DNA from: Mya arenaria | Lineage: Eukaryota > Mollusca > Bivalvia > Myida > Myidae | Assembly: GCF_026914265.1 (NCBI RefSeq) | Contig: NC_069130.1 | Coordinates: 45,221,929 to 45,285,928 of the forward strand | Direction: 5' to 3' | DNA: 64,000 nucleotides | In this document: positions 12,695-33,083 of the stretch, piece after piece | Position numbering within the stretch: the first letter of the stretch is position 1 | Layout of the letters: every line of letters starts with the position of its first letter | Notes under the pieces: generated by a model | Databases searched by the model: none | Told to the model about the DNA's origin: nothing | What the model saw: the letters and a program-made list of their open reading frames with translations, nothing else | Program-made: the position numbers and the translations under genes

Positions 12695-15600
12695 ATGCCC
12701 GGATACATTGTTTTAGATGCAAAAACTAGGAAAATTGCCGCTATTTGTTGCGCAGTGTCGTCTGCATTGTTTCTAATTGGGATTGCAATAGGATATGTTT
12801 CCGGGAAGGGTGAAGCAGGCTTAAAACAGCCACGCACGATTCTAGAACAGTTGAAGGAAACCGCATGCTACTCTCGCGATTTACAGCTGTCTGATTCCAA
12901 AGTTAATCGTTATTATGGATCTTTTCTCGACCGTCATCGACAAAAACTTTCATGTGCAGAGGACAGAAAACATTGCGAGACTTTCTATCTTCCAAAGAAC
13001 TACAATGCCTACCATTTGAACGGAAAGACCATTACAATTGACGGGAGACTGAACGATGATGCGTGGAAGGAGGTAATTGAATAAAACAACACATTTACAT
13101 GTATATACAAATTATTTTTTTGTTTTTCCTTTATTGGTGATATTTTGAGTTTATCATTTACATTTATATCGATATCTTGATTTCTGACTGGATTGATTTA
13201 TGTCTTCGACTTTAGCTATAATAGCATTTTTAGTACTTAACTAAGGTTAACTCTTTCTTCAAAAATATATTAGAGAAGACAAAAATACAACTAAAATAAC
13301 ATTCCAACATTTAATTTTTTGTTTATACAGTATCATATTCATACTACGCCCTTGATGCAATGATTTGGATAATAATTAAGAAATTCCTGTATCGGTTTTA
13401 ATTATCAAAACATGGTTAAGTACAGACAATTTCGAAAAATATAAGTTGTGTGCGAATTTTCAGTTTTGACAATATTTGGCAACAAAATCAATTATTATAT
13501 ACATGAAAACTCTCCTTCCAAGCATTCATCTGGATGTCTTATATGTAAGAGTATTTTTTCCTGTTCCATGTTTGTATATTTTGAAAGTATAACGGATTTT
13601 TCGCTTGTTTGTTGTCACGCAGAAACACGACACTCTTATAAAACTAGCGAACGTTTTATAATTCCACTTAAATCTATCTTAAAACTGCTTACATAAAAAT
13701 CAACATTTTAACAAATCTTCCACACTTTATTTCTTAGTAGCGAATAACATTAATACAGCAATTTAAGCACGGCCCTGTGAAAATGCATATCGAAAAAGGA
13801 CAAACACACACTACCGAGAAACACAGCACCCCTCAAAATAACATGTTAAAGAGGCACTTTTGTTCAAAATCATACACATGTGTAACAAACATAAATTTTG
13901 AGTGATACACCTTTAACTACCCACTAAATAATGCATTAATGGAAAATATTAATTAAGATTGTAACAGTGTTTTAATAGCTGAAAACGCAAAAGTATTAAA
14001 TGATTGGTGAGTGCTAAAGGATTTACTGTGATCTACTATAGTCACATAAGGTAGAAATACCATGTTTTCTGCACCTTTCATTCAAATTAAACTCGGGATC
14101 CTTCATAAGAACCAGTGTGTTTGACATTTATTCATCATATTTGGTATTTCAAAACTTGAAAGTAAGAGTGCATCTTTAAATGTCGTCCTCAAATCGAATA
14201 ATACTAACGAATTACTTTGTTCGTCAGGCCCCAATTTTTCGAAACATCTTAAGCCCCTTATAAATGAATAAGGATAAGGCTTAACATACTAGTTTAGTTC
14301 TGGTATAATTAAAGTAATATTTACAATCTGAAAGCGTTTTCGGTCTATAAAATGATATCATCTCCATAAATCACAATAAATTGATTTTTATTTAGTAACA
14401 TCAAGATTAAGTAAATTTTAGCTTTAAATAAAGCTTGTTATGCTAAAAAACTTTCGAGAAAAAGGGGCAGTGCAACGAAAATAAATCACGATCATCCAGT
14501 CGATACCGATTTCAAGCATTCCATTCAATTTTGCTCAAATGCGCAGAGGTGAGAAGCATATCATATTGTTCAAGCCTATATGTACTATAAACACGTGTGT
14601 ATAGGCTAAGAAAAATTAGATATAGCTTCTGTCCCCTGTGCCTAAATTCCTTAACCTAATTATTTCCAAAGGAGAACGCTCTACCTATCAATTAATTCAT
14701 GGCACAAAACAATGATGGATACTTTAATAACTATTTAATTGATTTCAAGAACATGCACCTACGACGCAGCAAAACGTCGAGGTGTTATTTAGACATTATA
14801 AATTAGGAATAGATTCATGTAACAATGTCATTATCTTTATACGGTAATGTAATATGAATGCATTTTCGTTCTTAGGTATCTTGGAGTTCAGATTTCGTGG
14901 ATATGAGAAGCGAACGTTTTCCAACCCCGTTCTTCACAACTAAATTCAAGCTAAGATGGGATGACGCAAACCTTTATGTCGGAGCGTATGTTCAAGAGAA
15001 AGATGTTTATGCGACCAAGACACAACACGATGACCAACTTTGGAAAGAAAATGGATTTGAGATGCTAATGGCTATCGATGGGACTTTGTTCAATTACAAG
15101 CAAGTACAAGTCAACGCCCTTGGTACAACAATGTACCAGTTGTTGTTTAAATCTCCATACGAAGCTGCTGGAAAGCCAGCATGGGAGAATCCAGATTACA
15201 ACACACGAGCATGGGAGGCGAACCTCACATCACAAGTAAACGTCGACGGAACCATCAATCAGCCTGGAGACGAAGATAAGTTTTGGACCGTCGAAATTTC
15301 TATCCCGTTTAGAAACCTTGCCTTAAACTCAAACAGAAGTCAAATTGATCCCAAGCCATATAGCAATGAAGTTTGGTTTATGCAGTTTGGTCGTTCCGAG
15401 CAAAATTTGACTGTTGCAAACGGAAGTTATGTTCCTCAGGTTCTTTCTGAACAGAATTGGTGGTCATGGCAACCATGCGGTACAATCAATCTACATCTGC
15501 AGGACCGATGGGGTCTCGTACAATTCAAGAGAAACAGGAACGATAAGAAGTTCCGATATAAAAAGTGGCATGTCTATCGCACCCTGTTCGATGTGATGAA

Positions 15601-15826
15601 TGCTATGGATGTATACAAAGCACTAAATGGGAAGTTCACCGACAACATAGCAGAGCTGGACATTCCTCCGTATTTGATGACAGCTACATGTGTAAAGATG
15701 CCGGAAATTAAGCTTTTGAGTAGGGAAAACGGAACTAAAGGTTTCGAAATCGGAGTGAAGTCACTCGTGATAACTCAGTTACCGATGGGTCATATCCGAG
15801 AGGACAGATATGTTTGGTTTCGCTAG
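12695..15826 (+). CDS. Membrane-anchored CBM9-like protein, paralogue A
   Basis: Two exons, 12695-13072 and 14876-15826 (intron 1803 bp, GT-AG), encode about 442 residues. The start MPGYIVLDAK aligns with the starts of paralogues B and C. Residues about 14-36 form one hydrophobic segment preceded by K/R, so a type II signal anchor with an outside C-terminus is likely; the conserved YVSGK follows it. Then come a short stalk with a CX6C pair, the phrase IDGRLNDDAW across the exon joint, TKFKLRWDDANLYVGAYVQE, DGTLFNYKQVQVNALGT, WWSWQPC and LQDRWGLVQFKR. This order matches family-9-like carbohydrate-binding (CBM9-like) proteins of bacteria. The likely role is sugar binding at the cell surface or in secretory compartments; the ligand is unknown. 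No catalytic domain is seen. N-glycosylation sequons are present (NLT, NGS). It is the first of three tandem copies. Confidence 0.88.
13850..14175. mobile_element. TTAA-flanked MITE in intron 1 of paralogue A
   Basis: Bounded by TTAA at 13846-13849 and 14176-14179. The left end starts AGAGGCACTTTTGTTC, and the right end AGTAAGAGTGCATCT is its imperfect complement. Relatives are at 23857-24224 and, inverted and truncated, at about 34185-34440 and 38170-38456. No ORF. Confidence 0.75.
14303..14573 (+). repeat. Intronic copy of the paralogue A upstream segment
   Basis: Direct copy of 12298-12569, nearly gapless. It lies about 300 bp before exon 2, whose first in-frame ATG is at 14897. If the segment holds promoter activity, this copy could drive a transcript lacking the membrane anchor; that is inference only. 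Confidence 0.85.
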
Positions 15827-16041
15827 TGCACAATATTCTCCTTTTAAACCGTTTTCAAATATGTGTTACTCCTTTTTGGTATGCTGAAACTTGTTGTGTT
15901 TATTGTTGCAATTATCCCAAAAAGGTTGCTTTTTACATTCATTTATATTCATAATGAATCGATACCCAAACTCTACGTTATGTTCCGCAGGCTCTTCATT
16001 GTCTTGTAGAGATCAGAACAAAAGAACATCAGCATTATTAA

Positions 16042-17585
16042 AGCTGCACTCTCACAGATTGAGCATTTTTCAAAAATTGATGTTTTATGCTTTTTTCTTA
16101 AACCGGCTTAAGCTATAAAACATCAATTCTCGAACGGAAATACCAGTTATATTATACGGCGTTCACACAGTGCCGATTATGGCTCCCGTTTGAGATCAGA
16201 CAGCGCTACGACACGAAAAGCGAAAAAGTCGGTTTACTATCCTCAATGATCTGGAATGTCCTATCATTGTCTGAACGCAGTCGTATATGTTCGTAACAGA
16301 GTCCTACGGAACGGGAATGGTCCGGAGAGGTCGGCCAAGCCCTCCCGACAGTTCGGTGCGTCCCGTAACATTCGGGAAACTCAGCCGATTTTGTCTAGTC
16401 GGAATACAATCGTGACTATGTCGTGACAGATTCTGCTGTATCGGATCAAAATCGTAACAATGTCCTGTGTTGTCTGGTCAGTGTCCTGTGGAACAGGCAT
16501 GATCTGGAGAAGCAGAATTAGCTATTAAGGTAGAAGCCGTAGGTGTAGTAGTCGTGACTGTAGAAGTAGGTGCAGTCGTCCCAACTGTGGTGACCACTGC
16601 AGGAATGGTAATGGGCTCAGTCTCACCTTTGGACTTGCTGGAGTTCTTCAACTGGCTCACCATCACCACTAGACTCTTCAGCAGGTGAATGCATAGGAGA
16701 AATAGAAATAGGCTTCCTTTTCCTTGGTTGTCTTGCAGTTTCCTTCATGGCAGGCACAGGCTTCTTCTTAGCTGGCATAGTGAAGTAACTAAAACCTTAT
16801 GATAATTAGGTTCAATATTTATAATTTAAATGGAGACAATCTGCCAATAACTGACGGCGATGCTCCTTGTAGAACAGCTGAGGCTAGAATGAGAATCCGC
16901 CGTCGCACGATTTTTTATAGGACGGGACCATCACGGGACTATCACGTGAAACGGTTTTCTAACGGATGTCTTCCGTCAGCGTCGGTTCATTGTCTGGTCA
17001 CTGTCTGATCTCTGTCGGATCGCATTCGGGAGAATCGGGACGCTGTCGGGACAGATTCGGTCGTTTTTTACCATGACAAAGATACAAATCGGATCAGAAT
17101 CGGATTGAGAACGGGATAATCGGGACGAATTCTGCTGGAAACGGCTGGATCGGGACGCCTCCTGAACAATATCTGATTGCTGTCGTGATTAAATAAATGT
17201 TTTTACAAATTTTAATAAAAGTTTGAATTTCCAGCCACGAATCACAGGATCTTGATCAGACATTTGACACATTTTAATCGGGAATGGTCCTATCAAGGAC
17301 GGCAGTAAAAATCCTGAATGTGTGACTTAGGCATAAGATTGTTGAAAAAAATTAGATCGCAGATGTCTAAATTTAAGTTCAAAAATTGATGTTTTATGCA
17401 TTTTTCTTAACCCGGTTTAAGCCATAAAACATCAATTTTCGAACGGAAATATGAAAATCTACGATCTGATATTTTATCAGCTATCTTATATCACTGGTTT
17501 GCAGATATACATGCAAACATTTGCTCTTTCCAAGTCAAAAAATAAAAGAAAGTTGTAAAAATGGTATATCTGTGAGAGTGCAGCT
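16042..17585. mobile_element. TTAA-flanked transposon or composite, TIR AGCTGCACTCTCACAG
   Basis: The left end AGCTGCACTCTCACAG after TTAA (16038-16041) is mirrored exactly by CTGTGAGAGTGCAGCT before TTAA (17586-17589). TTAA targets fit piggyBac-like or Kolobok-like elements. Just inside both ends lies a similar palindromic stretch of about 68 bp in direct orientation (about 16073-16140 and 17379-17447), built on 'ttgatgttttatgc' and its complement. The middle (about 16150-17340) is richer in GC and full of 'cgggac' and 'tcggatc' phrases, so it may be a second element inserted in the first. The flanks share a short repeat, 'catcagcattat'. Confidence 0.7.
16623..16778 (-). CDS. Small ORF inside the 16-17.6 kb element, 51 aa, unknown
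   Basis: Starts MPAKKKPVPAMKETARQPRK, is strongly basic, then acidic and Ser-rich, and ends VEELQQVQR. An overlapping frame continues to 16478 as a Thr/Ser/Ala-rich low-complexity stretch. It may be the remains of an element-encoded protein with a basic N-terminus. No domain recognised; it may not be translated. Confidence 0.3.
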   Translation of the reverse strand: MPAKKKPVPAMKETARQPRKRKPISISPMHSPAEESSGDGEPVEELQQVQR

Positions 17586-17589
17586 TTAA

Positions 17590-18069
17590 AGCATCAGCAT
17601 TATCAAAGGATTCCGACCCATAAATTTGTACACTGTGTGTGTGCCTGGTGACCCCATTTTATGGTGTTGTCATTTGAAAGTTATTGGTGTGCAAACATTT
17701 TTTATAACCGAAAGTAATAAAACGATTAAAATGTAGCCTTCAAAGATTTCAATATACGTCACGAGGCATCAACATTTAAAATATGAAAATGAAGCTGTCA
17801 GAGAAGTATCTTTTTGTGGGTCGAGTTCCTTCAAATTATATTTCTCGTCAGCAAGATTTATGTAAACATTGTATTCATCATATAAATTAAAATAATTATA
17901 TTAATGACAAAAAAATTGTTTGAATATCTGATATTGATATATGTAATAACTTGCATTTATACTCTGCTTATAATCACTAACTTCGACAATAAATATCCAG
18001 AATGTAATAGTAGTTTGATCACGCGTCGGTTGGTTTGCACGAAATCATAAGTAATTAAATTTAATTGTT
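17590..18069. other. Non-coding spacer, nothing recognised
   Basis: AT-rich spacer between the TTAA element and the 29 bp minisatellite. No ORF or repeat recognised. Confidence 0.5.
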
Positions 18070-21000
18070 AAACAATATGATGTAGTAACGAATGCTTACA
18101 CGTAAATGCTATAGTGATGTAGGCTTGCAACAATAAGAAGTGGTGATGTAGGCTTACAGCTATATGAAATAATGTAGTACGTTTACAACAATATACAGTA
18201 TTGATGTAGGCATAAAACACCATGATCTGGTGATGTAGTCTTACAACATTATGATGTAGTGATGTAGTCTAATAACAACATGATGTAGTGATGTAGTCTG
18301 GCAACAATATGATGTAGTGATGTAGTCTGGCAACAATATGATGTAGTGATGAAGGCTAACAACAATATCATGTAGTGATGTAGTCTGGCAACAATATGAT
18401 GTAGTGATGTAGTCTGGCAACAATATGATGTAGTGATGTAGTCTGGCAACAATATGATGTAGTGATGTAGTCTGGCAACAATATGATGTAGTGATGTAGT
18501 CTGGCAACAATATGATGTAGTGATGTAGTCTGGCAACAATATGATGTAGTGATGAAGGCTAACAACAATATGATGTAGTGATGTAGTCTGGCAACAATAT
18601 GATGTAGTGATGTAGTCTGGCAACAACATGATGTAGTGATGTAACTGGCAACAATATGATGTAGTGATGTAGTCTGGCAACAATATGATGTAGTGAAGAA
18701 GGCTAACAACAATATGATGTAGTGATGTAGTCTGGTAACAATATGATGTAGTGATAAATGCTAACAACAATATGATGTAGTGATGTAGTCTGGCAACAAT
18801 ATGATGTAGTGATGTAGGCTTACAGCAATATGATGTAGTGATGTAGGCTTACAGCAATATGATGTAGTGATGTAGGCTTACAGCAATATGATGTCGTGAT
18901 GTAGGCTTACAGCAATATGATGTAGTGATGAAGGCTTACAGCAATATGATGTAGTGGTGAAGGCTTACAGCAATATGATGCAGTGATGTAGTCTTACAGC
19001 AATATGATGCAGTGATGTAGTCTTACAGCAATATGATGTAGTGATGAAGGCTTACAGCAATATGATGTAGTGATGAAGGCTTACAGCAATATGATGTAGT
19101 GATGAAGGCTTACAGCAATATGATGTAGTGATGAAGGCTTACAGCAATATGATGTAGTGATGAAGGCTTACAGCAATATGATGTAGTGATGTAGGCTTAC
19201 AACAATATGATGTAGTGATGTAGGCTTACAGCAATATGATGTAGTGATGAAGGCTTACAACAATATGATGTAGTGATGTAGGCTTACAGCAATATGATGT
19301 AGTGATGTAGTCTGGCAACAATATGATATAGTGATGTAGGCTTACAGCAATATGATGTAGTGATGTAGGCTTACAGCAATATGATGTAGTGATGTAGGCT
19401 TACAGCAATATGATGTAGTGATGTAGGCTTACAGCAATATGATGTAGTGATGAAGGCTAACAGCAATATGATGTAGTGATGAAGGCTTACAGCAATATGA
19501 TGTAGTGATGTAGTCTTACAGCAATATGATGTAGTGATGAAGGCTTACAGCAATATGATGTAGTGATGAAGGCTTACAGCAATATGATGTAGTGATGAAG
19601 GCTTACAACAATATGATGTAGTGATGAAGGCTTACAGCAATATGATGTAGTGATGAAGGCTTACAGCAATATGATGTAGTGATGAAGGCTTACAGCAATA
19701 TGATGTAGTGATTAAGGCTTACAGCAATATGATGTAGTGATGAAGGCTTACAGCAATATGATGTAGTGATGTAGGCTTACAGCAATATGATGTAGTGATT
19801 AAGGCTTACAGCAATATGATGTAGTGATGAAGGCTTACAACAATATGATGTAGTGATGTAGGTTTACAGCAATATGATGTAGTGATGAAGGCTTACAACA
19901 ATATGATGTAGTGATGTAGGCTTACAGCAATATGATGTAGTGATTAAGGCTTACAGCAATATGATGTAGTGATGAAGGCTTACAGCAATATGATGTAGTG
20001 ATGGAGGCTAGCAACAATATGATGTAGTGATGTAGGCTGACAACAATATGATGTAGTGATGTAGGCTTACAACACTATGATGTAGTGATGAAGGCTTACA
20101 ACAATATGATGTAGTGATGGAGGCTTACAACAATATGATGTAGTGATGTAGGCTTACAACAATATGATGTAGTGATGTAGTCTTACAACAATATGATGTA
20201 GTGATGAAGGCTTACAACAATATGATGTAGTGATGAAAGCTAACAGCAATATAATGTAGTGATGAAGGCTTACAGCAATATGATGTAGTGATGGAGGCTT
20301 ACAACAATAGGATGTAGTGATGTAGGCTAACAACAATATGATGTAGTGATGTAGGCTTACAACAATATGATGTAGTGATGGAGGCTTACAACAATATGAT
20401 GTAGTGATGTAGTCTTACAACACTATGATGTAGTGATGTAGGCTTACAGCAATATGATGTAGTGATGGAGGCTTACAACAATATGATGTAGTGATGGAGG
20501 CTAACAACAATATGATGTAGTGATGGAGGCTAACAGCAATATGATGTAGTGATGGAGGCTAACAACAATATGATGTAGTGATGAAGGCTAACAACAATAT
20601 GATGTAGTGATGTAGGCTAACAACAATATGATGTAGTGATTTAGGCTTACAACAATATGATGTAGTGATGGAGGCTTACAACAATATGATGTAGTGATGT
20701 AGTCTTACAACACTATGATGTAGTGATGTAGGCTTACAGCAATATGATGTAGTGATGTAGTCTTACAACAATATGATGTAGTGATGGAGGCTAACAACAA
20801 TATGATGTAGTGATGTAGGCTAACAACAATATGATGTAGTGATGTAGGCTAACAACAATATGATGTAGTGATGTAGGCTAACAGCAATATGATGTAGTGA
20901 TGAAGGCTAACAACAATATGATGTAGTGATGGAGGCTAATAACAATATGATGTAGTGATGAAGGCTAACAACAATATGATGTCGTGATGAAGGCTAACAA

Positions 21001-21881
21001 CAATATGATGTCGTGATGAAGGCTAACAACAATATGATGTAGTGATGAAGGCTTACAACAATATGATGTCGTGATGTAGGCTTACAACAATATGATGTAG
21101 TGATGTAGGCTTACAACAATATGATGTAGTGATGAAGGCTTACAGCAATATGATGTCGTGATGAAGGCTAACAACAATATGATGTAGTGATGAAGGCTTA
21201 CAACAATATGATGTCGTGATGTAGGCTTACAACAATATGATGTAGTGATGTAGGCTAACAACAATATGATGTAGTGATGAAGGCTTACAGCAATATGATG
21301 TAGTGATGTAGTCTTACAACACTATGATGTAGTGATGTAGGCTAACAACAATATGATGTAGTGATGAAGGCTTACAGCAATATGATGTAGTGATGTAGGC
21401 TAACAACAATATGATGTAGTGATGTAGGCTTACAACTATATGATGTAGTGATGAAGGCTAACAACAATATGATGTAGTGATGAAGGCTTACAACAATATG
21501 ATGTCGTGATGTAGGCTTACAACAATATGATGTAGGCTTACAACAATATGATGTAGTGATGAAGGCTTACAGCAATATGATGTCGTGATGAAGGCTTACA
21601 ACAATATGATGTCGTGATGAAGGCTAACATCAATATGATGTAGTGATGTAGGCTTACAGCAATATGATGTAGTGATGAAGGCTTACAGCAATATGATGTA
21701 GTGATGAAGGCTTACAGCAATATGATGTAGTGATGAAGGCTTACAACAATATGATGTAGTGATGTAGGCTTACAGCAATATGATGTAGTGATGAAGGCTT
21801 ACAGCAATATGATGTAGTGATGAAGGCTTACAACAATATGATGTAGTGATAAATGCTAAGACTTATATGATGAAGTGATAA
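18070..21881. repeat. 29 bp minisatellite, about 131 units, with 290 bp higher-order repeats
   Basis: The unit is about 29 bp with core 'caatatgatgtagtgatg' and a variable part ('tagtctggcaa', 'taggcttacag', 'gaaggctaaca'). Variants lie in blocks: 'tctggcaac' mainly 18290-18810, 'ggcttacagc' mainly 18810-20000, mixed 'ggctaacaac' and 'ggcttacaac' after that. A marker variant ('cttacaacactatg') recurs at about 20411, 20701 and 21310, spacings of 290 and 609 bp, which are 10 and 21 units. Another marker ('gtcgtgatgtagg') recurs at 145 and 290 bp. Edge units are more diverged than the core. Since 29 is not a multiple of 3, all minus frames show the same 29-residue repeat; these are not genes. 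Confidence 0.95.
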
Positions 21882-22997
21882 TTACACCAAAATTGTGTTT
21901 TAAGCGTGAATTACGTGGTTACTTGCGCTCCGTATATCCAATATCGGGTCACCTACAAACCCCGTAACGTATTCATCACGTCGACAACCTGTTAACATGT
22001 TTAAATATTTCATTTATTCATCGGAATATTCATCGGAATCGGAAAATAGACGCCATTTTGTTACGATATTAAATTGGTGAACTAATATGTATGGAAAATA
22101 TAGGGTCACTGCGTGACCAATCCTGGACCAATGGTGCTGCGCCATTCATGTTGGTGGCGTGATAATATTTGAAATATATAAGCGTAGTAATTCTAGCATT
22201 TCTTGTAAGAGTATATATATTAAAACTATTATTTTAGTTTATTTGTTTGTATTATGTTAAGCTTTTGCAAAGTTGTTACTAGGTTTACTTTACTACTATT
22301 CTGAAAGGTTAAGTGATGAAAACCAATATCCTCTGAAATGATAATTGCTTTTTCGTTCGTGCCTGCTAATATCACGCTCTAAATTAATATATCTGATATA
22401 TTGTTCGAGCATACGACATTCACGCCCTGAAATATTAACACCAGCGGATCCGGGGTCGCACCTAGTGTGCTCCCCTCCCTAAAATCGTCCAAGTTTATTT
22501 TTAATTTCAATATAGAATAAAAAAGAAATAAATTATGCCCAAAATACACCATTTCGGACGTAAAATTGTGAAAACAGTGGGGGAGGGTTCGGAGGGAAAG
22601 GCGGGAGCCAAAATCTAACGCCCGTGAGATACGCCCATTTTACGTCATATCCTGTATCCGCCCCTAAAAGTTTGCTTTGTTGAAGAACACGCACGTCTAT
22701 ATGATTGCTTTTGAAGCATTGCATGCATGCAATACCGCCAACATTTTGACATTTATTAAATACATTTGCATGTTGATATTTGCACCACAATATTATTTTT
22801 GAGTTAAGTTGTGAAATATATAGATTCTACCGTATAATGAATGTCACTCACTGAAAAGAAAACTAACATTCTTGGCCTAGTTGGGGGTAATTTGTTATAA
22901 AATGGCACATTTAAATGAAAAGGTGAAAAGTTTAAGGCCACTAGAAAAGTCACACTTTCAACAAGCAGGTTAAAGCCAGGCTCATATTTACATACAA
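21882..22997. other. Non-coding spacer before paralogue B
   Basis: No convincing ORF. About 22450-22670 looks like a dispersed repeat, with G-rich 'gtgggggagggttcggaggg' and 'acgcccattttacgtc' phrases, but its ends could not be fixed. Confidence 0.45.
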
Positions 22998-23152
22998 ATA
23001 ACGTCAAACACGTCTGCATTTCCGAGGCGTATCAATGTCAGGACTTCAATATGCCAAACCATTACATTGCCCCTCATCTTAACAAAAAAGCCATCGTCAT
23101 TGACGGAAGGATGGACGAGGAGGCCTGGGAAGAGGTATCTATCTCTCTTATT
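22998..23152 (+). pseudogene. Broken duplicate of the 3' part of paralogue B exon 1
   Basis: 155 bp match 23628-23782 with three differences, covering the last part of exon 1 (from NVKHVCISEAY to the splice donor) plus about 18 bp of intron. The offset is 630 bp. The frame is open, but there is no start codon, no acceptor AG next to the left edge and no matching upstream exon, so it is a gene fragment. Its near identity suggests a recent local duplication or gene conversion. Confidence 0.85.
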
Positions 23153-23362
23153 GTGTTTGTAAATTTAATTGGTTTTAAGTTATATCTAGTATAAACATCT
23201 TTTAAGTGAACGCATCGCTACTCACAGATTCGCTTGGTAAATCATGTCAAGCAACGTCGTAAGCTTTTGCCAACTTATTTAATATATTTCTAACGACATT
23301 AATCATACATCTTATTTTCAGTGAATGTGTTTTAACAATTTATTTCTTCTAAATTTTGCAAA

Positions 23363-26300
23363 ATGGTTTGTTACATTTTGCTGGACAATAAAATTAAGAA
23401 AATAGTCGCAATCGGTATTGGTGTGAGCCTTTTGCTGTTTGTAATAGGAATCCTTATAGGATATTATTCGGGAAAGGCGGCCGGATCATCATCATCGTCT
23501 TCGTCAAGTGCCTCCGTAGAGGGAGGATCTGGTAGCGTTGCGGCTGCATTGACAAGTTCGTGCCTCTTAGAAGAAATCAAAGGTGACCAAAAAACGAGAC
23601 TTTTCATCGACCGATATGTGGAACGCCATAACGTCAAACACGTCTGCATTTCCGAGGCGTACCAATGTCAAGACTTCAATATGCCAAACCATTACATTGC
23701 CCATCATCTTAACAAAAAAGCCATCGTCATTGACGGAAGGATGGACGAGGAGGCCTGGGAAGAGGTATCTATCTCTCTTATTCATCCAAAACGTCATTTT
23801 TATAGACATGAACTTTTGCTACTAAATATATAGAGCATTACTATGATCATATTTAAAGTGACACTCTTATTCAAAATCAATACATACTCATGTATAACAA
23901 ACCTAAATTTTGAGCGATACACCTACAACTACAAACTACATAATGCATTTATGGAAAATATTAATTATTGGTGACAAGATTGTTACCGTGTATTTATTAG
24001 CAGAAAGCGCAAAAATAATAATTCATTGGTGAATGCTAAAAGATTTATTGCGATCTACTATAGTCTCATAAGATAGAAATACCGTGTTTTCTGCACATTT
24101 CTTTCAAATTAAACTCGTTATCCTTCATAAGAACCATTGTTTTCGATAATAATTTAACCTTTCTGGTATATTAAAACAATCGTATTAATTGTGGTTAATC
24201 TTATTTGGGAGTAAAAGTGAATCTTTAAAGGAGCACACTATAGCTTGATGCCTATATTAATCAACGAAACATAAAACCCTGTCATGTTTGACTAGTTTGA
24301 CTATAATGATCAAAAAGCATATAATTTGGGTACCTTTAAAAATATGAGCATTTAAAACGAAAATAAGAGTTAATGGCTACGTAGTTATAAATTCCCATAC
24401 TAAAGACAGCGCCAAAATATAGCTAATATTTCTTTTCTTCAATACACATATTACATGCATTTTTTGTTCTGATCATTGCAATCAAATGAGTTAAACATAA
24501 GAATGCATCAAAATAATAAAGGCATCAATCTATATCGTGTTTCATTTAAAAGCCCAATAAACTAGTTCGCAAACTTCTAAATAAAATATATTGTACATGT
24601 TTATTTACTCAAACAAGTTATAAAATTACGTATTTTTACATAATTATCAATTATATTTATTAACTGATATGACGTAAGCATATACATCTAAAGACATGAA
24701 ATATTTATTACCAATACAATAGAAACTGCAGGACAAAGTCAAGTTACCACAAATAGCAAATACACTTTTTATACGCAGTCCCTTAAAGGGAATGAACTCC
24801 TGCGTTGGTGTTTTATGTCCTGTAAAAAATAACTTGACCTTTCAAGATTTTGTGACATTGTTAAACTGCAGAAATTCATAGTTAGTGTATGCATTATCGT
24901 TTGTAGGTCGAGTGATCCGATTACTAAATATGAAGAATAACATTCGGAGCTCCTTGTTAATTTTTATCGCAAACTCTCCTCGGATGTATGCCGGTACATC
25001 AGTAGAAGTAGTTCGTATTATTTTTAATTGCATTATTAGTTAAATGTAGTGTTTTGGCTTGTGTTTGTAGATCTAAGTTTAAACTGATTGCCAGTGAAGT
25101 GAATTATTGCAAACATAATCAAGGTTCCCAAGCGTTAAGTCATTAATTTTAACTGCTAAATTGAAATAACTCAGCGATCTACTTGCAGCGTAGTTAAAGT
25201 ATACCGATTTCTGACATTGTAAACCGTCCATATACATCCGAGGTTGTTTTCGATAAAAATTGCCGAGGTGTTCCGAATGGAAGAATAAATATTTTAGGGT
25301 TAAGCGACACTATCTTTTACAGGTTATATAACAGCAAAGCAAAAGCTCATTCACTTCAAGTGGCTGTGGTTTTATAGGCACAAGCTTAAGATCGTACAGA
25401 CACTAAACAAACGACACACAACTTACACAAAAAGACAGATAACATATACATCAAAATAACTCCATCTATAAGTGCTGTGGTCAACGCTTTGAAATGGTCC
25501 GATGAGTTGGGGGGTTAAACTTATTTATGGGTAGACAACCTTAGATCGTAAAAACATTTTAGAGTCAAGATCTCAAACGTGATATGCATTAATGCATGCT
25601 AGATCTACAGATGTAGGTAACGACAACCATTTGGTATCAATTAAGAGCCTTTCACAATGCAAAAGTGGGTGGGGAAGGACAAAAAAATAAAATGTTTGAA
25701 CAAATCATGTTTTACTTCGCTTTGAGGATCTTTTTCAGGGGTAGAACAAACATCCTTTGCAAAATGCTTTTGGTTTAAAAGGAGTAGAGCAAATTTTACG
25801 AAAGAAGGTAATATCAGATTTGTATCAAAAAGCATTTGCATTTTTGTCTATCGACAATATGCAGAATTATATGTATGAGTCAAAATGCCCCAGACTACCA
25901 AATAATCAATGTTGTTTGGATTCGTGATGATATTTTCTTAAATAAGAAAGATATTCCAGAAAATAAGGCAAAATAGTGGATTTAATTCATTTTTGGTAAC
26001 AAATATCTTTCTTAAAAATTCTTGCAATCACGCAAGGTAGTGCTGATCGGGAAGATTGCTATTTTGACATGAAAAACATAGTAATTTTGAATACAGACAT
26101 TTCCATAAAAATGTAAAAGGTTTTTGATTGAAAATCTGATGAAATATTTTATACATAAAAGTTACTGAATTCCCTCTTGCACCTACACATGTGTTGCAAC
26201 GGATGTATTAGTTGTGCTTTGATAAATATTAAATCGCAAAACTAAATAAAAAAAATGATTTTTTAAGCATTTATGTTTTGATCCTTCAAACTAATTCATG

Positions 26301-28289
26301 CACTGTGGAAGGCCCTTCATTAAGGTTTGAATTCTTAGAGAAAGACTGTCTAGGGCTTATAGAAATTATGTTGTTACGCCTATATTTATATTGAACTACA
26401 CGTATAACCGTCGAGTACTAAGTCAGCTATATGTGCCTTACTACATATGTGTGGTCATATCAAACACAGCGGTTTTCATCTTGAAAGAAGCAAATTAGGT
26501 AATTTAACGCCCGAATTAAAGTGAAATAAAGAATAAATATACAAACCACAATCTTGTACTTAAGGTTTTTTTTCCAGCGGGAATTACCCTTCCAATTTTA
26601 GATGATTAATTGATATAAGGGTCTCCAGACATAAAAAAATGACATACGAGTTTCCAGACATAAAAAAAATTGACATACGAGTTTCCAGACATAAAAAATG
26701 ACATACGAGTTTCCAGACATAAAAAAATGACATACGAGTTTCCAGACATAAAAAATTGACATACGAGTTATCATATTTAACCACGCGATAAACAATGTCA
26801 TAAATGCTACGTCGAAAGGCAACATTTTGCTATGGATGAAGATTCAAAACGAAGATATCTTTTCTTTTTCTTCACAATTTTAAATGAAACAAAGGGCAGT
26901 CTATGCCGCTTAAATAGCCCCGCCTTCGTTTAATTAGTACCGGAGTTTGATGGGTAATTATTTTCCTTAAACACTTCGATAAACCTGTTTTCAAGATAAT
27001 ATTTTGACAGTGCTTCACCTGGCGGCGAGTTTGCGAGTAGGATCGTCGAATTGTTTTAAGAAACTAAAATCTCAATCAAATTTAAGTAAAAGACCAAAGG
27101 CGAGGCTCTGTAACCGGCATAGACTTCGCTCTGTTTAATCTAAAGTGGTAAAGAAATGGAAAAGTCATTTTTGTTTAAACTCTTAATTCGAAGCTAAATG
27201 CTGCCTTTGGATGGAGCATTTACGATTCAATTTATCACGTGGAATACACACACTGTCACCAATTTCTCCATCAGTTGACAAGCTTATATCTTGCTTCGCG
27301 TATCTTAAATGTTTAGTATCGTATCCATGTGGTTTATATTTCAATAGGTTCCGTGGAGTGAATCATTTGTGGACATTCGAAGCTCCAGTTACCCTAAGCC
27401 CAAGTTTAGCACCAAGTTCAAAATGCGCTGGGATGATGAGAGACTATACATAGGAGCCTACATCGAAGACACTGACCTTTGGGGAACCATACAAGGACAA
27501 GAGACGGGGATCTGGCAAGACAATATGATAGACATATTAATGGATGTAGATGGCTCCATGTTTAACTACAAGCAGATAGAGATAAATGTTCTTGGGACCA
27601 CTTTGGACCATATCTTGTACAAGTCGCCTTACGATTCAATTGGTCCAAACCCAAACTGGACAGACAATGACCTAAGCTGGCACCCAGACATGAAGAAGGC
27701 AGTTTACACCGATGGAACAGTTAACACTCCCGGGGATAAGGACAAATTCTGGTCTGTCGAGCTGTCAATGACGTTTGAGCAACTGGCCAACAGGTCAGAA
27801 CGCGTTCAAGCTTCGCCGCAAGATAACGAGGTATGGTTTATGCAGGTAGGACGAGCCCATCACCCGCTGGAGGTTGAGAACGGGACGTATCAGAAAGTTC
27901 CAAACGTATCATTCGATGAGATGGGATGGTGGGCATGGCAACCGTGTGATGCAGTGAATTTCCTTTTGCAAGATCGTTGGGGGTTGGTCCAATTCAAACG
28001 AAGCACCATTGATAATACTTTTAATTTCCAAAAGTGGCACCTTTACCGGGCATTGTTTGATATGATGGATGGTATGAACAAATACAAGGCAATCCATGGA
28101 CGATTTGTTACGATGATTGAGGAACTCGACATTCCGCCGTATTTGATGTCTGGAGTTTGCGTTGAAATTCCTGAAATAAAGGTTATCGACAGAGGTGTAT
28201 ACTCGGGATTCGAAATAACTGTGAGATCCAAATTTCTGTCGCACAAACCAGCCCATATTAACGAGGAACGATATGTGTGGTTCACATAA
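23363..28289 (+). CDS. Membrane-anchored CBM9-like protein, paralogue B
   Basis: Two exons, 23363-23764 and 27348-28289 (intron 3583 bp, GT-AG), encode about 447 residues. The N-terminus MVCYILLDNKIKK leads into a hydrophobic anchor (about 14-36) and YYSGK, aligned without gaps to paralogues A and C. An eight-serine run (residues 42-49) and a Gly/Ser-rich linker follow, longer than in the paralogues. Family phrases are IDGRMDEEAW, TKFKMRWDDERLYIGAY, DGSMFNYKQIEINVLGT, DGTVNTPGDKDKFWSVE, WWAWQPCDAVN and LQDRWGLVQFKR. C-terminal RALFDMMDGMNKYKAIHG and ELDIPPYLM are shared by all three. Likely a cell-surface or secretory-pathway carbohydrate-binding protein of type II topology; ligand unknown. 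Intron 1 contains two MITEs and a small minisatellite. Confidence 0.88.
23857..24224. mobile_element. TTAA-flanked MITE in intron 1 of paralogue B
   Basis: TTAA at 23853-23856 and 24225-24228. The left end AGTGACACTCTTATTC is mirrored by the right end GGGAGTAAAAGTGAATCT. Same family and orientation as 13850-14175. Confidence 0.75.
24229..24545. mobile_element. Second TTAA-flanked MITE sharing its TTAA with the first
   Basis: Left end AGGAGCACACTATAG then CTTGATGCC; the right end, reverse complemented, reads AAACACGATATAG then ATTGATGCC. Right TTAA at 24546-24549. Its left TTAA (24225-24228) is also the right TTAA of the neighbouring MITE, so the two abut. No ORF. Confidence 0.65.
24550..26600. 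other. Intron 1 of paralogue B, non-coding
   Basis: AT-rich intronic sequence. ORFs are short and without domains. Confidence 0.6.
26626..26770. repeat. Minisatellite of about 28-31 bp, five units
   Basis: 'gacatacgagtttccagaca' followed by an A run of variable length repeats five times. Length differences lie in the A run. It lies in intron 1 of paralogue B. Confidence 0.85.
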
Positions 28290-28568
28290 ACTTGGAGTTA
28301 ATGATCACGGAAATCCATGTAAAATCTTCAGCTGCTGGAAGCAAATCATATGACTGTGTTTGCTATCATGTTTAGAACTATACGATATATTTTATATATA
28401 TACAACTTGCGTGATTATTTTGTGTGATTCTTATATAATTCCGTTTATATTACACACAATATACCTAATGTACTTTTTCATGTATGTTAATCAGAAATAC
28501 ATATATCATTGTATTGCATTCATCAACAGAATGTCTAAGTCACATTAACAAAAGAAGACGTCGCAAAC

Positions 28569-28585
28569 AATAAACTCACAATAAA
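28569..28585 (+). terminator. Poly(A) signals of paralogue B
   Basis: Two AATAAA hexamers (28569-28574 and 28580-28585), about 280-295 bp after the stop codon. This is a plausible 3' end, with no competing gene between. Confidence 0.5.
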
Positions 28586-28960
28586 CATTAATGAAACCGG
28601 TTGTATAGTCATTTAGTGGTTTACCGCCTCGGAATGGCCAATTAAAACAAGGCGGAATTCATTGGATTCATTGGGGTTTTAACTAGTTAGTATCAACTAG
28701 AGCACTGAATCTGACACTGTCAAAAACCTTACCAATAATAGTTGTAAAAATACTGTACAAAGCTATCATCAACTTGAGGACAATGAAGAATAAAGTTACG
28801 CCATATTATATAAACTGAAACTTGATGTGTAACCATAAACTAAAATTCAATACTTTATGGCCAAATAGGTACATGACCTAAGAACGAATGAAACCAAACG
28901 GAGCAACTGCACCAACTCCTCAAAGTTGCGATATTATCGTATAAAGGCAACATGTTTTAA

Positions 28961-29616
28961 AGGGACTAGACACCTGCAGATGATAAAATTGCAACACAAA
29001 AGAAAAATGTCAATCTATATCGTTGTGTGCAACGCTTTGAATCTTACTTATTTACTGATGTTTTATATCGCTGAGGACACATTTAGCTTTCGCAGTTTTT
29101 GCGTATTATTACAAATTTGAAATCTACTAGGTTTGTCTACCCAGTAAGTTTGAAAATTGCGTCAGTAAATGTATAGACACTCGTGACTTGCACGTTCTAA
29201 ATATACACACGTCATGGCTTCTCAAAAGAATGGAGAGTGCAATGTAGAGGAAACTCCTGCGAAACAACGTAGACTCAGAGCCCGACAAATTAACATCCAG
29301 GATGAAGTTGATCAATGGAATCTTTTAAAAGAGATTAAAAGTGCTGAAAATTACAGCGAGTTGCCTTAAAGGTTATTGACAGGGTAGTATGTAAAATGAT
29401 CATGTAACTTGCAAGGTGTTCGGGGAAAAAATCCGCGCTATTTCAAAACGGGAAAGCTCAACTGAACAAGCGTTTGCAGGGGCGGCATGAGTGTTGTGTT
29501 TATTCTTTAAATCATGTAAAATTATCGGCCACATGCTAGCTCGTTATGCCAATTCTAGGCTTGCTTTGAGAGAAAACTGTATTTGCCGATTTTGGACCAT
29601 CTGGTGTCGAGTCCCT
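28961..29616. mobile_element. TTAA-flanked DNA element, 656 bp, TIR AGGGACTAGACACC
   Basis: Left end AGGGACTAGACACC after TTAA (28957-28960); right end GGTGTCGAGTCCCT before TTAA (29617-29620). The inverted ends match at 13 of 14 positions. It contains a 51-codon ORF, so it may be a deletion derivative of a coding TTAA-targeting transposon. Confidence 0.8.
29214..29369 (+). CDS. Small ORF in the TTAA element, 51 aa, element-derived
   Basis: Starts MASQKNGECNVEETPAKQRR, continues RLRARQINIQDEVDQWN and ends NYSELP. The basic patch and the 'DEVDQWNLLKEIK' stretch look like the N-terminal end of an element-encoded protein. No transposase catalytic region follows before the right end. It is placed here because of the surrounding inverted ends, not because a family was recognised. 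Confidence 0.4.
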   Translation: MASQKNGECNVEETPAKQRRLRARQINIQDEVDQWNLLKEIKSAENYSELP

Positions 29617-29753
29617 TTAATGTAATCCATCATTTATTTGTGTGCAAAACTAATACATTTTTACCAACACGTTGAAGACCAATAAAATTAAAATGTGATT
29701 TAAAACGAAACCACCAAATCATGAAATAGAGGATACGTTTTACTTTTATTTAA

Positions 29754-30208
29754 AGGGTCCCGGTCATGTCTTGTAAAATGCACTTTTTGACAAAACAAAT
29801 GTTGTCAAACCATTAGGAGTGTTAGAACTAGGATATTGACGGCTGGAACCATTCAACAATTATTGATATATGCTCAAATATTGTCTTTAATATCTATGAT
29901 TTTGAATAGCGTTGGTAACGCTTTTCAACGAAAGCTTAAAGGGTTATACTATCACTCAACTTAGGAAAAGAGTCCTTGTGATCAATCAGTTTTATTTTCA
30001 TATTTTGTGGGTTTTTTTTAATTTTTTATCATGACTGTATGAGCGTGGGTTCGTTCCCCAATAAAACCAGTTTTGTATACTCTATTTGTTGTTTTCTGCA
30101 ATTTTTGTATCAAAGAGTAAATTTATTATACATGTACTTAATATAAAGTCTTTTCAGATGCATAACCGTGGGAGATTAAAAAATGATCAAAAGCATGAGT
30201 GTGTCCCT
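29754..30208. mobile_element. TTAA-flanked MITE upstream of paralogue C
   Basis: TTAA at 29750-29753 and 30209-30212. Left end AGGGTCCCGGTCATG; right end, reverse complemented, AGGGACACACTCATG. A relative lies at about 31004-31510, in intron 1 of paralogue C. Confidence 0.75.
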
Positions 30209-30492
30209 TTAAGACAAACATTTATTAATTCATACAAGGAATGTTCTAATTAATCTTAATGTATAACCATTGCGTGCGAATTTATTTTTGAGGATGCCTG
30301 CGGCATAATGGTAATATAACTTTGAAGACAATTAATTGTTTTGTAGCAATCAGTATTAATATGCAACGTAAATGTATAAATCAACAATAAAGTATGTGTC
30401 ACGGTCTAGTGATTTCATCGTATTATGTTTTTACAAAGCGTAAGTTACGTATATACATAAGCAAGCGCTGTGAAACTTTTTAAGTCAGAAAA

Positions 30493-33083
30493 ATGGCAGG
30501 TTATATCATAGTGGATGTGAAAACAAAGAAAACCGTCGCAATATGCGCTGCAATTGGAGTTGGAGTATTCGTGATCGGAATTTTAATCGGATTCTTTTCC
30601 GGAAAAGGGCATGGTTCGAATTCTGCCGCAATATCTCAAAGTGACCAGCCAACAGCTGCAGAGGAACTCCTTGCTGAATGCACATGGTCACTGGCTGAAT
30701 CGTCGAGCGGTTTGCGATTCGTGGAGAGATACATCGAACGTCACTCGGAGAAAAACATTTGCGTGGAAAATTCGGAGCAATGTATGGACCTGGCACTGCC
30801 AAGACACTATATCGCGTATCATTTAAACACGGCAGACATTACTATAGATGGGAAACTAGACGAGAAAGCATGGGACGAGGCAAGTCTTATGGCTAATCCA
30901 GCTGTTTTATAGCCGTCATTTGGCCATATTCCCAAAGCCAAAGTGTTTTTATTCCAAATTTGAATATAAAATGTCCCAGTGTATGTTAAGAATACCTTTT
31001 TAAAGTGACTCGCTCATGGTTTGTTATATGCACTTTTTTAATTACGAAATAAAGTGTGGCAAATCATAAGGAGTGTTAAAACAAAAACACCTAAAGCTGG
31101 AACCCTTCAGCTAATGTTGATATATGCTCAAATATCGACTTTGAAGACCACACTTTCCATTAGCGTTTATAACGCGATTGAAAATTAATTACGGCTGTGG
31201 TGTTGCGTGATTGATTGTTTGACATTATCACGAGATATTAACAATGTATCCTTAAAAAGTCAACATATCTACCACTTTTGTAAAAGTTCCGGTGGTGGTG
31301 TGGACTAGCCGGCTGTTTTCTTTTCTTTTTTCTTGAATTTACTGTCGTGGGTTCAAAATCCAACTAAAACCAAAATACCTTTTCTTTGCTATAACTGTAT
31401 TTTTTCTGCTATTTTGATATCATAGAGTAAAATAATGATAAAATAAGTGTTTTCAGATGTTTTACCGGAAAAACTATTTTTTAGTCCAATAACATGAGCA
31501 TACACACACTGAAATTCTTTATTAAACTCTCATACCCATAGACTAGTAGAGTGCTAGAGTACAAAAGAGTAATAAATTAAACTTTAATGGTTCAATTTGG
31601 TCAAAAAGTGGTCGAAATTAGAGACCACACACGCACTTTATTAATTCCAGTAATTATTGTTAAATAAGCGACCATAATTGTTTATCCTATACTTTGTATA
31701 CCTTAGTGATCCTTTCTTGGATCTGCGTCCCAATTTTGAAATTTGTAGCGTAACAATGACAAAAAAAATATTAAAATAAGCTTATATGTTTCATTTAACT
31801 CTACTTTATATATATTTAATGCTAAGTTTCGTGTGTATGTGAGGGGGAGGAGGTTCACAATCGTTGTAAAATTGATGAGTTTAAATTTGGTGTCCATGCT
31901 TATGTGAGCTTTTGCGGGATTGTTAGGAAAAATGCATAAACTGGGAGTTACCCTTCACACCTTAAAATCCACTTTAAATCGCAAATAACTTCCAGATGTT
32001 TTAGAACAACGTAATTATATAAATGTATGAAGGTAAATGATGCATGTGTTACGGAGATGAGCGTGGTGTAAACAACAGTATTGGTGAGGCAAAATGTAGT
32101 GCAATTGAGTTAAATAAATCCAGTAAACCTTAAAAGGTAAATGTGTTTCTTATTTTAAGGTCGAGTGGAGCGAGAACTTTGTCGATATGAGAAGTGTGGT
32201 TTACCCAGATCCTTATTATACAACGAAATTCAAAATGCGATGGGACAACGACCGGCTATATGTGGGGGCTGTATTGCAAGAGAGGGACTTCTGGGCGACA
32301 AATACGAAGCATGATAGCAATATATGGCAAGAAAATGGGTTCGAGATGTTGGTGGACGTTGATGGGACAATGTTCAACTACAAGCAGATGCAGATAAATG
32401 TTTTGGGAACCATGATGGACCAGGTTCTATTCAAGTCTCCCTATGATCAGATTGGGAATGAAAGTATAAGGGAGAAAGAATGGCATCCTGATGCACGAAA
32501 GGAGGTATATGTAGATGGCACGGTGAATAAACCTGGTGACATAGATAAATACTGGTCAGTGGAAATGGCTCTATCATTCGATAACCTCAAGGATCATTCA
32601 GAACGCGTTCAACCAAATCCTATAGATGATGAGGTTTGTTTTGTTCAGTTTGGTCGATCAGAGCAACATTTAGAGAATGTTAACGGCGAATATCGCAAAA
32701 AGAAGAACTCGACGACCGACTGGTGGGCATGGCAGCCGTGCGACGCCATTAATTTGCATCTCCAGGACAGGTGGGGGTTGGTTCAATTCAAGAGAACATT
32801 GGCAGATAATGAATTTAAATTTACCAAATGGCATATTTACAAATCACTTTTTGATATGATGAATGGTATGAAGAAATACAAAGCTTTGCATGGTCGTTAT
32901 GTAAACACAATCGAAGAGCTAGACATCCCGCCATATTTGTTATCCCGGAACTGCGTTGATATACCGGAAATCCGGATAGAGGACAGGAATGGAACGAAGG
33001 GATTTGATATTACAGTGAAGTCAATGTTTCTGTCCCACAAGCCCGCCCATATAAGGGAAGATAGATATGTCTATTTCAAATGA
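30493..33083 (+). CDS. Membrane-anchored CBM9-like protein, paralogue C, with a GC-AG intron
   Basis: Two exons, 30493-30879 and 32160-33083, encode about 436 residues. MAGYIIVDVKTKK is followed by the hydrophobic anchor (about 14-36) and FFSGKG. The ectodomain has IDGKLDEKAW, TKFKMRWDNDRLYVGA, DGTMFNYKQMQINVLGT, DGTVNKPGDIDKYWSVE, WWAWQPCDAIN, LQDRWGLVQFKR and C-terminal HIREDRYVYFK. The CX6C stalk pair, the WQPC cysteine and the CV cysteine are shared with A and B. The exon joint DAWDE/VEWSENF, aligned to the paralogues, needs a donor GAG|GCAAGT. So the 1280 bp intron is GC-AG where A and B have GT. Role as for the paralogues: sugar binding on the outside of the membrane, ligand unknown. 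Confidence 0.88.
31004..31510. mobile_element. MITE in intron 1 of paralogue C, relative of 29754-30208
   Basis: Starts after TTAA (31000-31003) with AGTGACTCGCTCATGG. It shares 'aggagtgtta', 'gctggaacc' and 'gatatatgctcaaatat' in order with 29754-30208. The right end is diverged and its edge is uncertain. Confidence 0.6.

Follow-up and report, generated by a model that had tools for sequence, protein, structure and literature searches.

The question raised by the locus described here is what three membrane-anchored proteins, each carrying a head that resembles carbohydrate-binding module family 9 (CBM9), are doing in a bivalve, and where that head came from. The proteins are encoded by three intact two-exon genes (A, B and C), which lie in tandem on the + strand of a 64,000-nucleotide stretch of the Mya arenaria genome (assembly GCF_026914265.1, contig NC_069130.1, positions 45,221,929 to 45,285,928), referred to below as the window and numbered from its first base. 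The answer favoured in this work, with a confidence that stops a little short of even, is that they are lectin-like membrane receptors with a CBM9-like head. The component parts of the cluster are as follows.

12695–13072, + strand: gene A exon 1, encoding a 13-residue N-terminal tail, a hydrophobic anchor (residues 14–34), a stalk with Cys58, Cys87 and Cys94, and the first CBM9 strand (IDGRLNDDAWKE); GT donor at 13073
14876–15826, + strand: gene A exon 2, encoding the remainder of the CBM9-like domain and the C-terminal tail; stop codon TAG
22998–23152, + strand: orphan fragment of gene B exon 1, comprising its 3' part including the donor site, without the anchor; 98% identity over 155 bases (blastn)
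23363–23764, + strand: gene B exon 1, encoding the anchor (residues 14–34), a Ser-rich stalk and IDGRMDEEAWEE; GT donor
27348–28289, + strand: gene B exon 2, encoding the CBM9-like domain and tail
30493–30879, + strand: gene C exon 1, encoding the anchor (residues 15–35), the stalk and IDGKLDEKAWDE; non-canonical GC donor, GAG/GCAAGT
32160–33083, + strand: gene C exon 2, encoding the CBM9-like domain and tail

A sequence-only reading of the window had proposed three paralogues alike in two-exon structure, joint and anchor, and all of these were recovered at the positions listed. Every gene is interrupted by a phase-0 intron at an equivalent codon, following the final E of AW[K/E/D]E (intron lengths of 1803, 3583 and 1280 bases in A, B and C, respectively). 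The phrases by which that reading had defined the family (IDG..D..AW, TKFK.RWD..LY.GA, NYKQ...N.LGT, W..WQPC and DRWGLVQFKR) are likewise present, in the same order, in all three. Exon 2 is open for 316 (A), 313 (B) and 307 (C) codons, and the spliced proteins of 442, 447 and 436 residues are 47–56% identical, or 50–60% identical over 313–319 aligned residues. Chance is excluded by the long open exon 2, by this identity between copies, and by spliced-protein scores that exceed the Pfam cut-off for CBM9_1. All three introns are presumably spliced in vivo. That of gene C is of the GC-AG type (GAG/GCAAGT ... TTTTAAG/GTCGAG, donor at 30880–30885), with otherwise good consensus; GC donors are rare, and gene finders may miss or shorten this gene.

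Production of the three genes by local duplication is supported. The paralogues have diverged at nonsynonymous sites by dN values of 0.38–0.46 (the synonymous equivalent, dS, being not computable by the NG86 method), and, since intron and anchor are common to all three, both are probably older than the tandem duplications. A six-frame tblastn search of the window with all three proteins found no fourth gene; the sole extra match was the gene B exon 1 fragment, the next being at E 0.20 or worse.

Membership of the CBM9 family became apparent on joining the exons. The spliced proteins score 31.4 (A), 30.9 (B) and 24.8 (C) bits against CBM9_1 (PF06452), for which the cut-off is 23.4, the match spanning only profile positions 1–78 of 185, while the exon 2 pieces alone score 20.8, 19.9 and 17.1 bits and fall below it. 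No other Pfam family, catalytic domains included, exceeded its cut-off in the three proteins, nor did anything in NCBIfam; given the lack of a linked catalytic domain, the proteins are classed as CBM9-like as opposed to modules of a carbohydrate-active enzyme. When PDB sequences were searched with a profile of 47 rows, the CBM9 structures 7nwn (E 2.4e-8) and 1i82 (E 1.3e-5) were matched, as they were when the profile was built from only the three animal proteins (E 9.3e-4 and 0.32, respectively). The family assignment made from the sequence alone thus holds for all three spliced proteins.

The predicted fold, which had been named as a check on that assignment, points the same way. An AlphaFold model of the contiguous exon 2 of gene C, from which the first strand is absent because it is encoded in exon 1, was obtained with a predicted local distance difference test score (pLDDT) of 87.9 and a predicted template modelling score (pTM) of 0.86. 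The best Foldseek match was to 4jpq (E 6.6e-9), followed by the CBM9 structures 7nwn, 1i82 and 7nwo (E 6e-8 to 9e-8), with template modelling (TM) scores by target length of 0.55–0.68 for these four and 0.55–0.63 for the three CBM9 entries. The haem-binding DOMON-type subunits 7b04 (nitrite oxidoreductase) and 2ivf_C (ethylbenzene dehydrogenase) were weaker matches (E 3e-4 to 9e-4), and are absent from the PDB matches of both sequence profiles. The modelled head takes the form of a CBM9-like (DOMON-type) beta-sandwich, to which is added a helical C-terminal tail like that of the bacterial stand-alone family. The entry 4jpq, Bacteroides uniformis BACUNI_03838, is a putative carbohydrate-binding protein with 12% identity to the model, and with a ligand left unproven in the entry title. 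The CBM9 modules of xylanases (TmCBM9-2, PDB 1i82; CkXyn10C CBM9.3, PDB 7nwn) share with the animal proteins the fold, the N-terminal half (IDG..D..W, K..WDD..LY) and the first of two aromatics that clamp the sugar; the animal proteins differ in having no linked enzyme, a second clamp residue that is not Trp by alignment, and a greater length with a C-terminal tail. That tail occupies window positions of about 32829–33080 in gene C, and its start (bacterial consensus YYAQ..Y...HG.YA..L.EL) weakly matches the type IV pilin chain 8tj2 (E 0.1), which may be chance.

The closest counterparts are stand-alone bacterial proteins annotated as carbohydrate-binding family 9-like, from many phyla, whose similarity of about 30–40% identity extends over the entire ectodomain and into the C-terminal tail, bearing out the bacterial affinity that had been proposed. 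One of them (locus L005) aligns with residues 99–436 of protein C at 36% identity; many other rows stop at about residue 385. Similarly, WP_309940891.1 of Aureibacter tunicatorum and WP_011966800.1 of Parabacteroides distasonis are colinear with the animal proteins from PxxY...IDG to the C-terminal tail, with the same order of blocks. The two bacterial copies that were aligned begin with a short leader of secretion type and lack a stalk. The animal proteins combine an anchor with a stalk bearing three conserved cysteines, have two further conserved cysteines in the head and an intron in the gene, and differ in residue at many of the conserved positions. A scan of GTDB contigs yielded at least 504 relatives among at least 589 pattern matches, and the best 80 of the former were retained, with 11 phylum labels where legible; two scans of viral contigs (queries A2 and A1) revealed no relative. 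Whole genomes of five phyla (1327 in total, being samples of larger groups) were also searched with protein C. At E ≤ 1e-10, Bacteroidota yielded matches in 74 of 395 genomes, Verrucomicrobia in 37 of 288 and Planctomycetota in 34 of 294; at E ≤ 1e-20, Armatimonadota yielded them in 81 of 201 and Acidobacteria in 12 of 149. The best score overall was 205.8 bits at 39% identity, in Armatimonadota, and no closer donor was found among the 1327 genomes; the highest bacterial identity among the matches listed was 41%.

CBM9 modules bind to the ends of sugar chains, mainly reducing ends. The sugar ring is held between two aromatic residues, Trp71 and Trp175 in TmCBM9-2 and Tyr89 and Trp191 in CBM9.3, and three calcium sites are described in 1I8U and CBM9.3 (PMC8280721). 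The position equivalent to Trp71 is Trp in all three animal proteins, at residue 182 in A and 185 in C, and in 82 bacterial rows is Phe (62), Tyr (19) or Cys (1). The bacteria conserve 93 columns at a level of 85% or more; 46 of these are retained in all three animal proteins, among them the W-x-W and WG motifs, and a His beside the column of the second clamp residue, found in 82 of 82 bacteria, is present also in A and C. To judge by the alignment, much of the scaffold has been kept and much of the remainder altered.

That the head is held on a membrane, as the sequence-only reading had it, is indicated by a single strong hydrophobic stretch in each protein (residues 14–34 in A and B, 15–35 in C) with a mean hydropathy of 2.3–2.8, the next-best position in each reaching no more than 1.0. 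The 13–14 residues that precede it carry a charge of 3 in all three proteins, counting the N-terminus, and the 15 that follow carry 2 (A), 1 (B) and 1 (C), which is consistent with a signal anchor whose N-terminus faces inward, protein A being the least clear case. In every protein, residues 4–7 (YIVL, YILL and YIIV) conform to the YxxPhi type of pattern. The stalk, of some 65–70 residues, contains three invariant cysteines, at Cys58, Cys87 and Cys94 in A, and two further invariant cysteines lie in the head (in A, 327 in the WxWQPC block and 398 in the tail; in C, 323 and 394), at columns where Cys occurs in none and in one of the 82 bacterial rows, respectively, 28 rows being gapped at the second.

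An indication of which glycans might be concerned comes from the genomic neighbours of the bacterial relatives. The nearest same-strand gene within 400 bases was collected at 75 of 80 loci (five with frame trouble were left out), giving 42 upstream and 45 downstream genes. The mannoside phosphorylase family GH130 was found upstream in nine of the 42, and was assigned by name in eight of ten genes tested, lying directly upstream of the CBM9-like gene at loci L011, L034, L045, L050, L055, L057, L058 and L072. Other upstream genes encode GH20 (2) and fucosidase (1), and downstream genes GHL10 (5), an SSF symporter (5), GH125 (4), fucosidase (2) and GH18 (2). On a Hymenobacter plasmid, genes for GH92, ROK and N4-(N-acetylglucosaminyl (GlcNAc))-asparaginase are near the CBM9-like gene. 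The remainder is mixed, with 31 families downstream and 57 upstream at E 1e-5; among the 25 listed per side most occur singly and many are not carbohydrate-related. Since GH130 matches number 0–10 per whole genome, with any at all in 17 of 24 genomes (eight of which were chosen for a GH130 neighbour), nine adjacencies among 42 are, by our estimate, far above what a random draw from thousands of genes would give. They are not nine independent cases, because the eight named loci are all from bacteria of the FCB (Fibrobacteres–Chlorobi–Bacteroidetes) group. At these eight loci the CBM9-like protein is likely to play an accessory part in the use of mannosides or N-glycans by FCB bacteria. The neighbours of the bacterial genes (GH130, GH125, fucosidase, GH18, GH20 and, on the one plasmid, GH92) suggest that one bacterial branch or more has oligosaccharides of the mannose/GlcNAc type, resembling N-glycans, as a class of ligand.

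In the favoured reading, each gene would encode a single-pass membrane protein with a short cytosolic N-terminal tail, a signal-anchor helix, a stalk and an outward-facing head of glycan-binding type. The head would bind the end of a glycan chain beside the conserved Trp that aligns with Trp71 of TmCBM9-2, and the protein would serve as a lectin-like receptor, either on the cell surface or within endosomes, the motif at residues 4–7 permitting its internalisation. The three paralogues probably differ in ligand. The part in self/non-self or microbe binding that the sequence-only reading suggested for such surface lectins is a putative one. Several observations weigh against this interpretation. 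With regard to the head, TM-scores by query length are modest (0.36–0.49 for the five best rows, with root-mean-square deviations of 4.5–8.3, and 0.36–0.41 for the CBM9 structures). The second clamp position, Trp175, aligns with Leu, Phe and Leu in A, B and C, and with Met in 79 of 82 bacteria, in a weak part of the alignment, placed by equal spacing (W, 14 residues, [FW]G) together with an hhalign stretch of low confidence. In addition, 47 of the 93 bacterially conserved columns have changed in one or more of the animal proteins, in some cases to a residue common to all three, and a Glu found throughout the bacterial rows (82 of 82) is Gln in each of the three; because of these changes, the binding surface may have been remodelled or lost. 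With regard to the membrane-proximal part, the charge difference across the anchor of protein A is only 1, the YxxPhi pattern, being short, could have arisen by chance, N-glycosylation sequons are not significantly more frequent in the proteins than in shuffled sequences, and a type II anchor with a stalk also suits a Golgi-resident protein. The neighbour evidence is also qualified, in that GH130 accounts for a minority of the neighbour genes, and the eight named loci, all of FCB type (Flavobacteriaceae, Ignavibacteriota and relatives), are not the best-scoring ones.

Two other functions have to be set beside that of a receptor. The proteins could feasibly reside in the Golgi or endoplasmic reticulum as type II proteins, the CBM9-like module binding N-glycan intermediates during glycoprotein maturation in the manner of the lectin modules that accompany glycosyltransferases. 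The arrangement of type II anchor, stem and luminal head is that of Golgi enzymes, and some bacterial relatives are linked with mannoside enzymes of N-glycan type; yet no catalytic domain exceeds its Pfam cut-off, the hydrophobic stretch of about 21 residues is rather long for the Golgi, and the YxxPhi-type motif is present in the tail of all three proteins, so that this location is considered possible if rather unlikely. A comparably low probability is attached to the alternative that the domain binds no sugar, the fold having been kept as a structural or protein–protein interaction module of an animal adhesion protein. The altered columns just described speak for it, as do the lack of an aromatic at the second clamp position in A and C by alignment (B having Phe) and the presence of haem subunits of DOMON fold, 2ivf_C and 7b04, among the fold matches. 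However, the 46 unchanged columns include W-x-W and WG, the first clamp aromatic is Trp throughout, and the same alignment shows no second aromatic in the bacterial relatives either, some of which nonetheless occur in glycan-degrading loci. The lectin-like receptor continues to be preferred, at the strength given above.

The provenance of the head was examined by phylogenetic analysis. Quick trees of 85 rows (the split L003 gene being left out) and 105 rows were both poorly searched, and in the latter a tree that grouped the animals with four best-hit rows outscored the unconstrained quick tree by 102.7 log units. For this reason a careful tree of 81 rows was used, 24 of the 105 having been dropped as truncated, divergent or surplus; the choice was made after the quick trees, and the dropped rows include L040, which was among the nearest in the 85-row tree. 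In the careful tree the three animal proteins form one clade with support of 100/100. Its stem measures 2.19 + 0.35 changes per column, compared with 0.7–1.07 between paralogues. The clade has no supported bacterial sister in this tree, Armatimonadota being nearest by path, without support. Approximately unbiased (AU) tests did not reject either of two groupings, the animals with four best hits from Armatimonadota (p 0.437) or with 39 rows of FCB and Acidobacteriota (p 0.233), and no donor group is therefore assigned. The Gemmatimonadota and Acidobacteriota, nearest in the 85-row quick tree, were not upheld as such in the careful tree, and exclusion of the animals from the FCB/Acidobacteriota branch, which has support of 98/99, is not borne out by the latter AU test.

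Recent acquisition from bacteria, or contamination, is exceedingly improbable, even though the closest sequences are all bacterial in the collections searched, which were prokaryotic and viral. Contamination was ruled out by the introns, with consensus sites in all three genes, and by the presence in the same window of a reverse transcriptase and an exon of 6-phosphogluconate dehydrogenase of animal type (58880–59137, + strand). The best PDB matches of the latter, 4gwg, 5uq9, 2jkv and 1pgn, at E 9e-26 to 3e-25 and well ahead of others, are to mammalian enzymes. Recent transfer was ruled out by the dN values between the copies together with the stem of about 2.5 changes per column; moreover, the best bacterial identity among the matches listed is 41%, and no intronless, near-identical copy was found in the bacterial searches. 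Given the very long stem and the lack of a resolved bacterial sister, any transfer is, on this phylogeny, old, and the data would fit either an old bacterial transfer or old inheritance. CBM9-annotated proteins presumably occur in other invertebrates also. Among fungi, a CBM9-like protein or gene of a chytrid, more highly expressed in zoospores, is mentioned in one report (PMC13391722).

A more elaborate history would derive the genes from a glycan-capture protein of bacterial mannoside or N-glycan loci that long ago became a membrane-anchored, endocytic pattern-recognition receptor of animals and was then expanded in tandem, with mannose/GlcNAc-type oligosaccharides as the ancestral ligand class; taken as a whole this is a doubtful proposition. 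If true, the endocytic receptor would constitute a class of animal lectin that was not found described in a literature search. Animal lectins are conventionally assigned to a small number of folds (C-type, galectin, R-type and others), to which a membrane-anchored CBM9-like family would add one more, and the genomic setting of the bacterial counterpart suggests the first glycans to consider. The three genes are good candidates for little-studied animal sugar receptors, and the cluster offers a specific case in which old transfer from bacteria to animals can be weighed against deep inheritance followed by loss. The search, with most subscription journals outside its coverage, found no paper on animal CBM9 proteins among the titles and abstracts listed. 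In the sources consulted, apparent mentions of 'CBM9' refer to CBM94 (PMC12616123), CBM9 counts are tabulated in a study of oomycete secretomes (PMC4316629), and 'CBM' appears 0 times in a paper on rotifer lectins (PMC8878817).

Elsewhere in the window, the reverse transcriptase occupies 55758–58066 on the − strand as two overlapping frames, and is apparently broken. The repeats, which appear to resemble those of bivalves, include about 130 copies of a 29-base satellite at 18071–21850, between genes A and B, and longer tandem repeats at 36949–38080 (unit of about 182 bases) and 48528–49187 (unit of about 145 bases).

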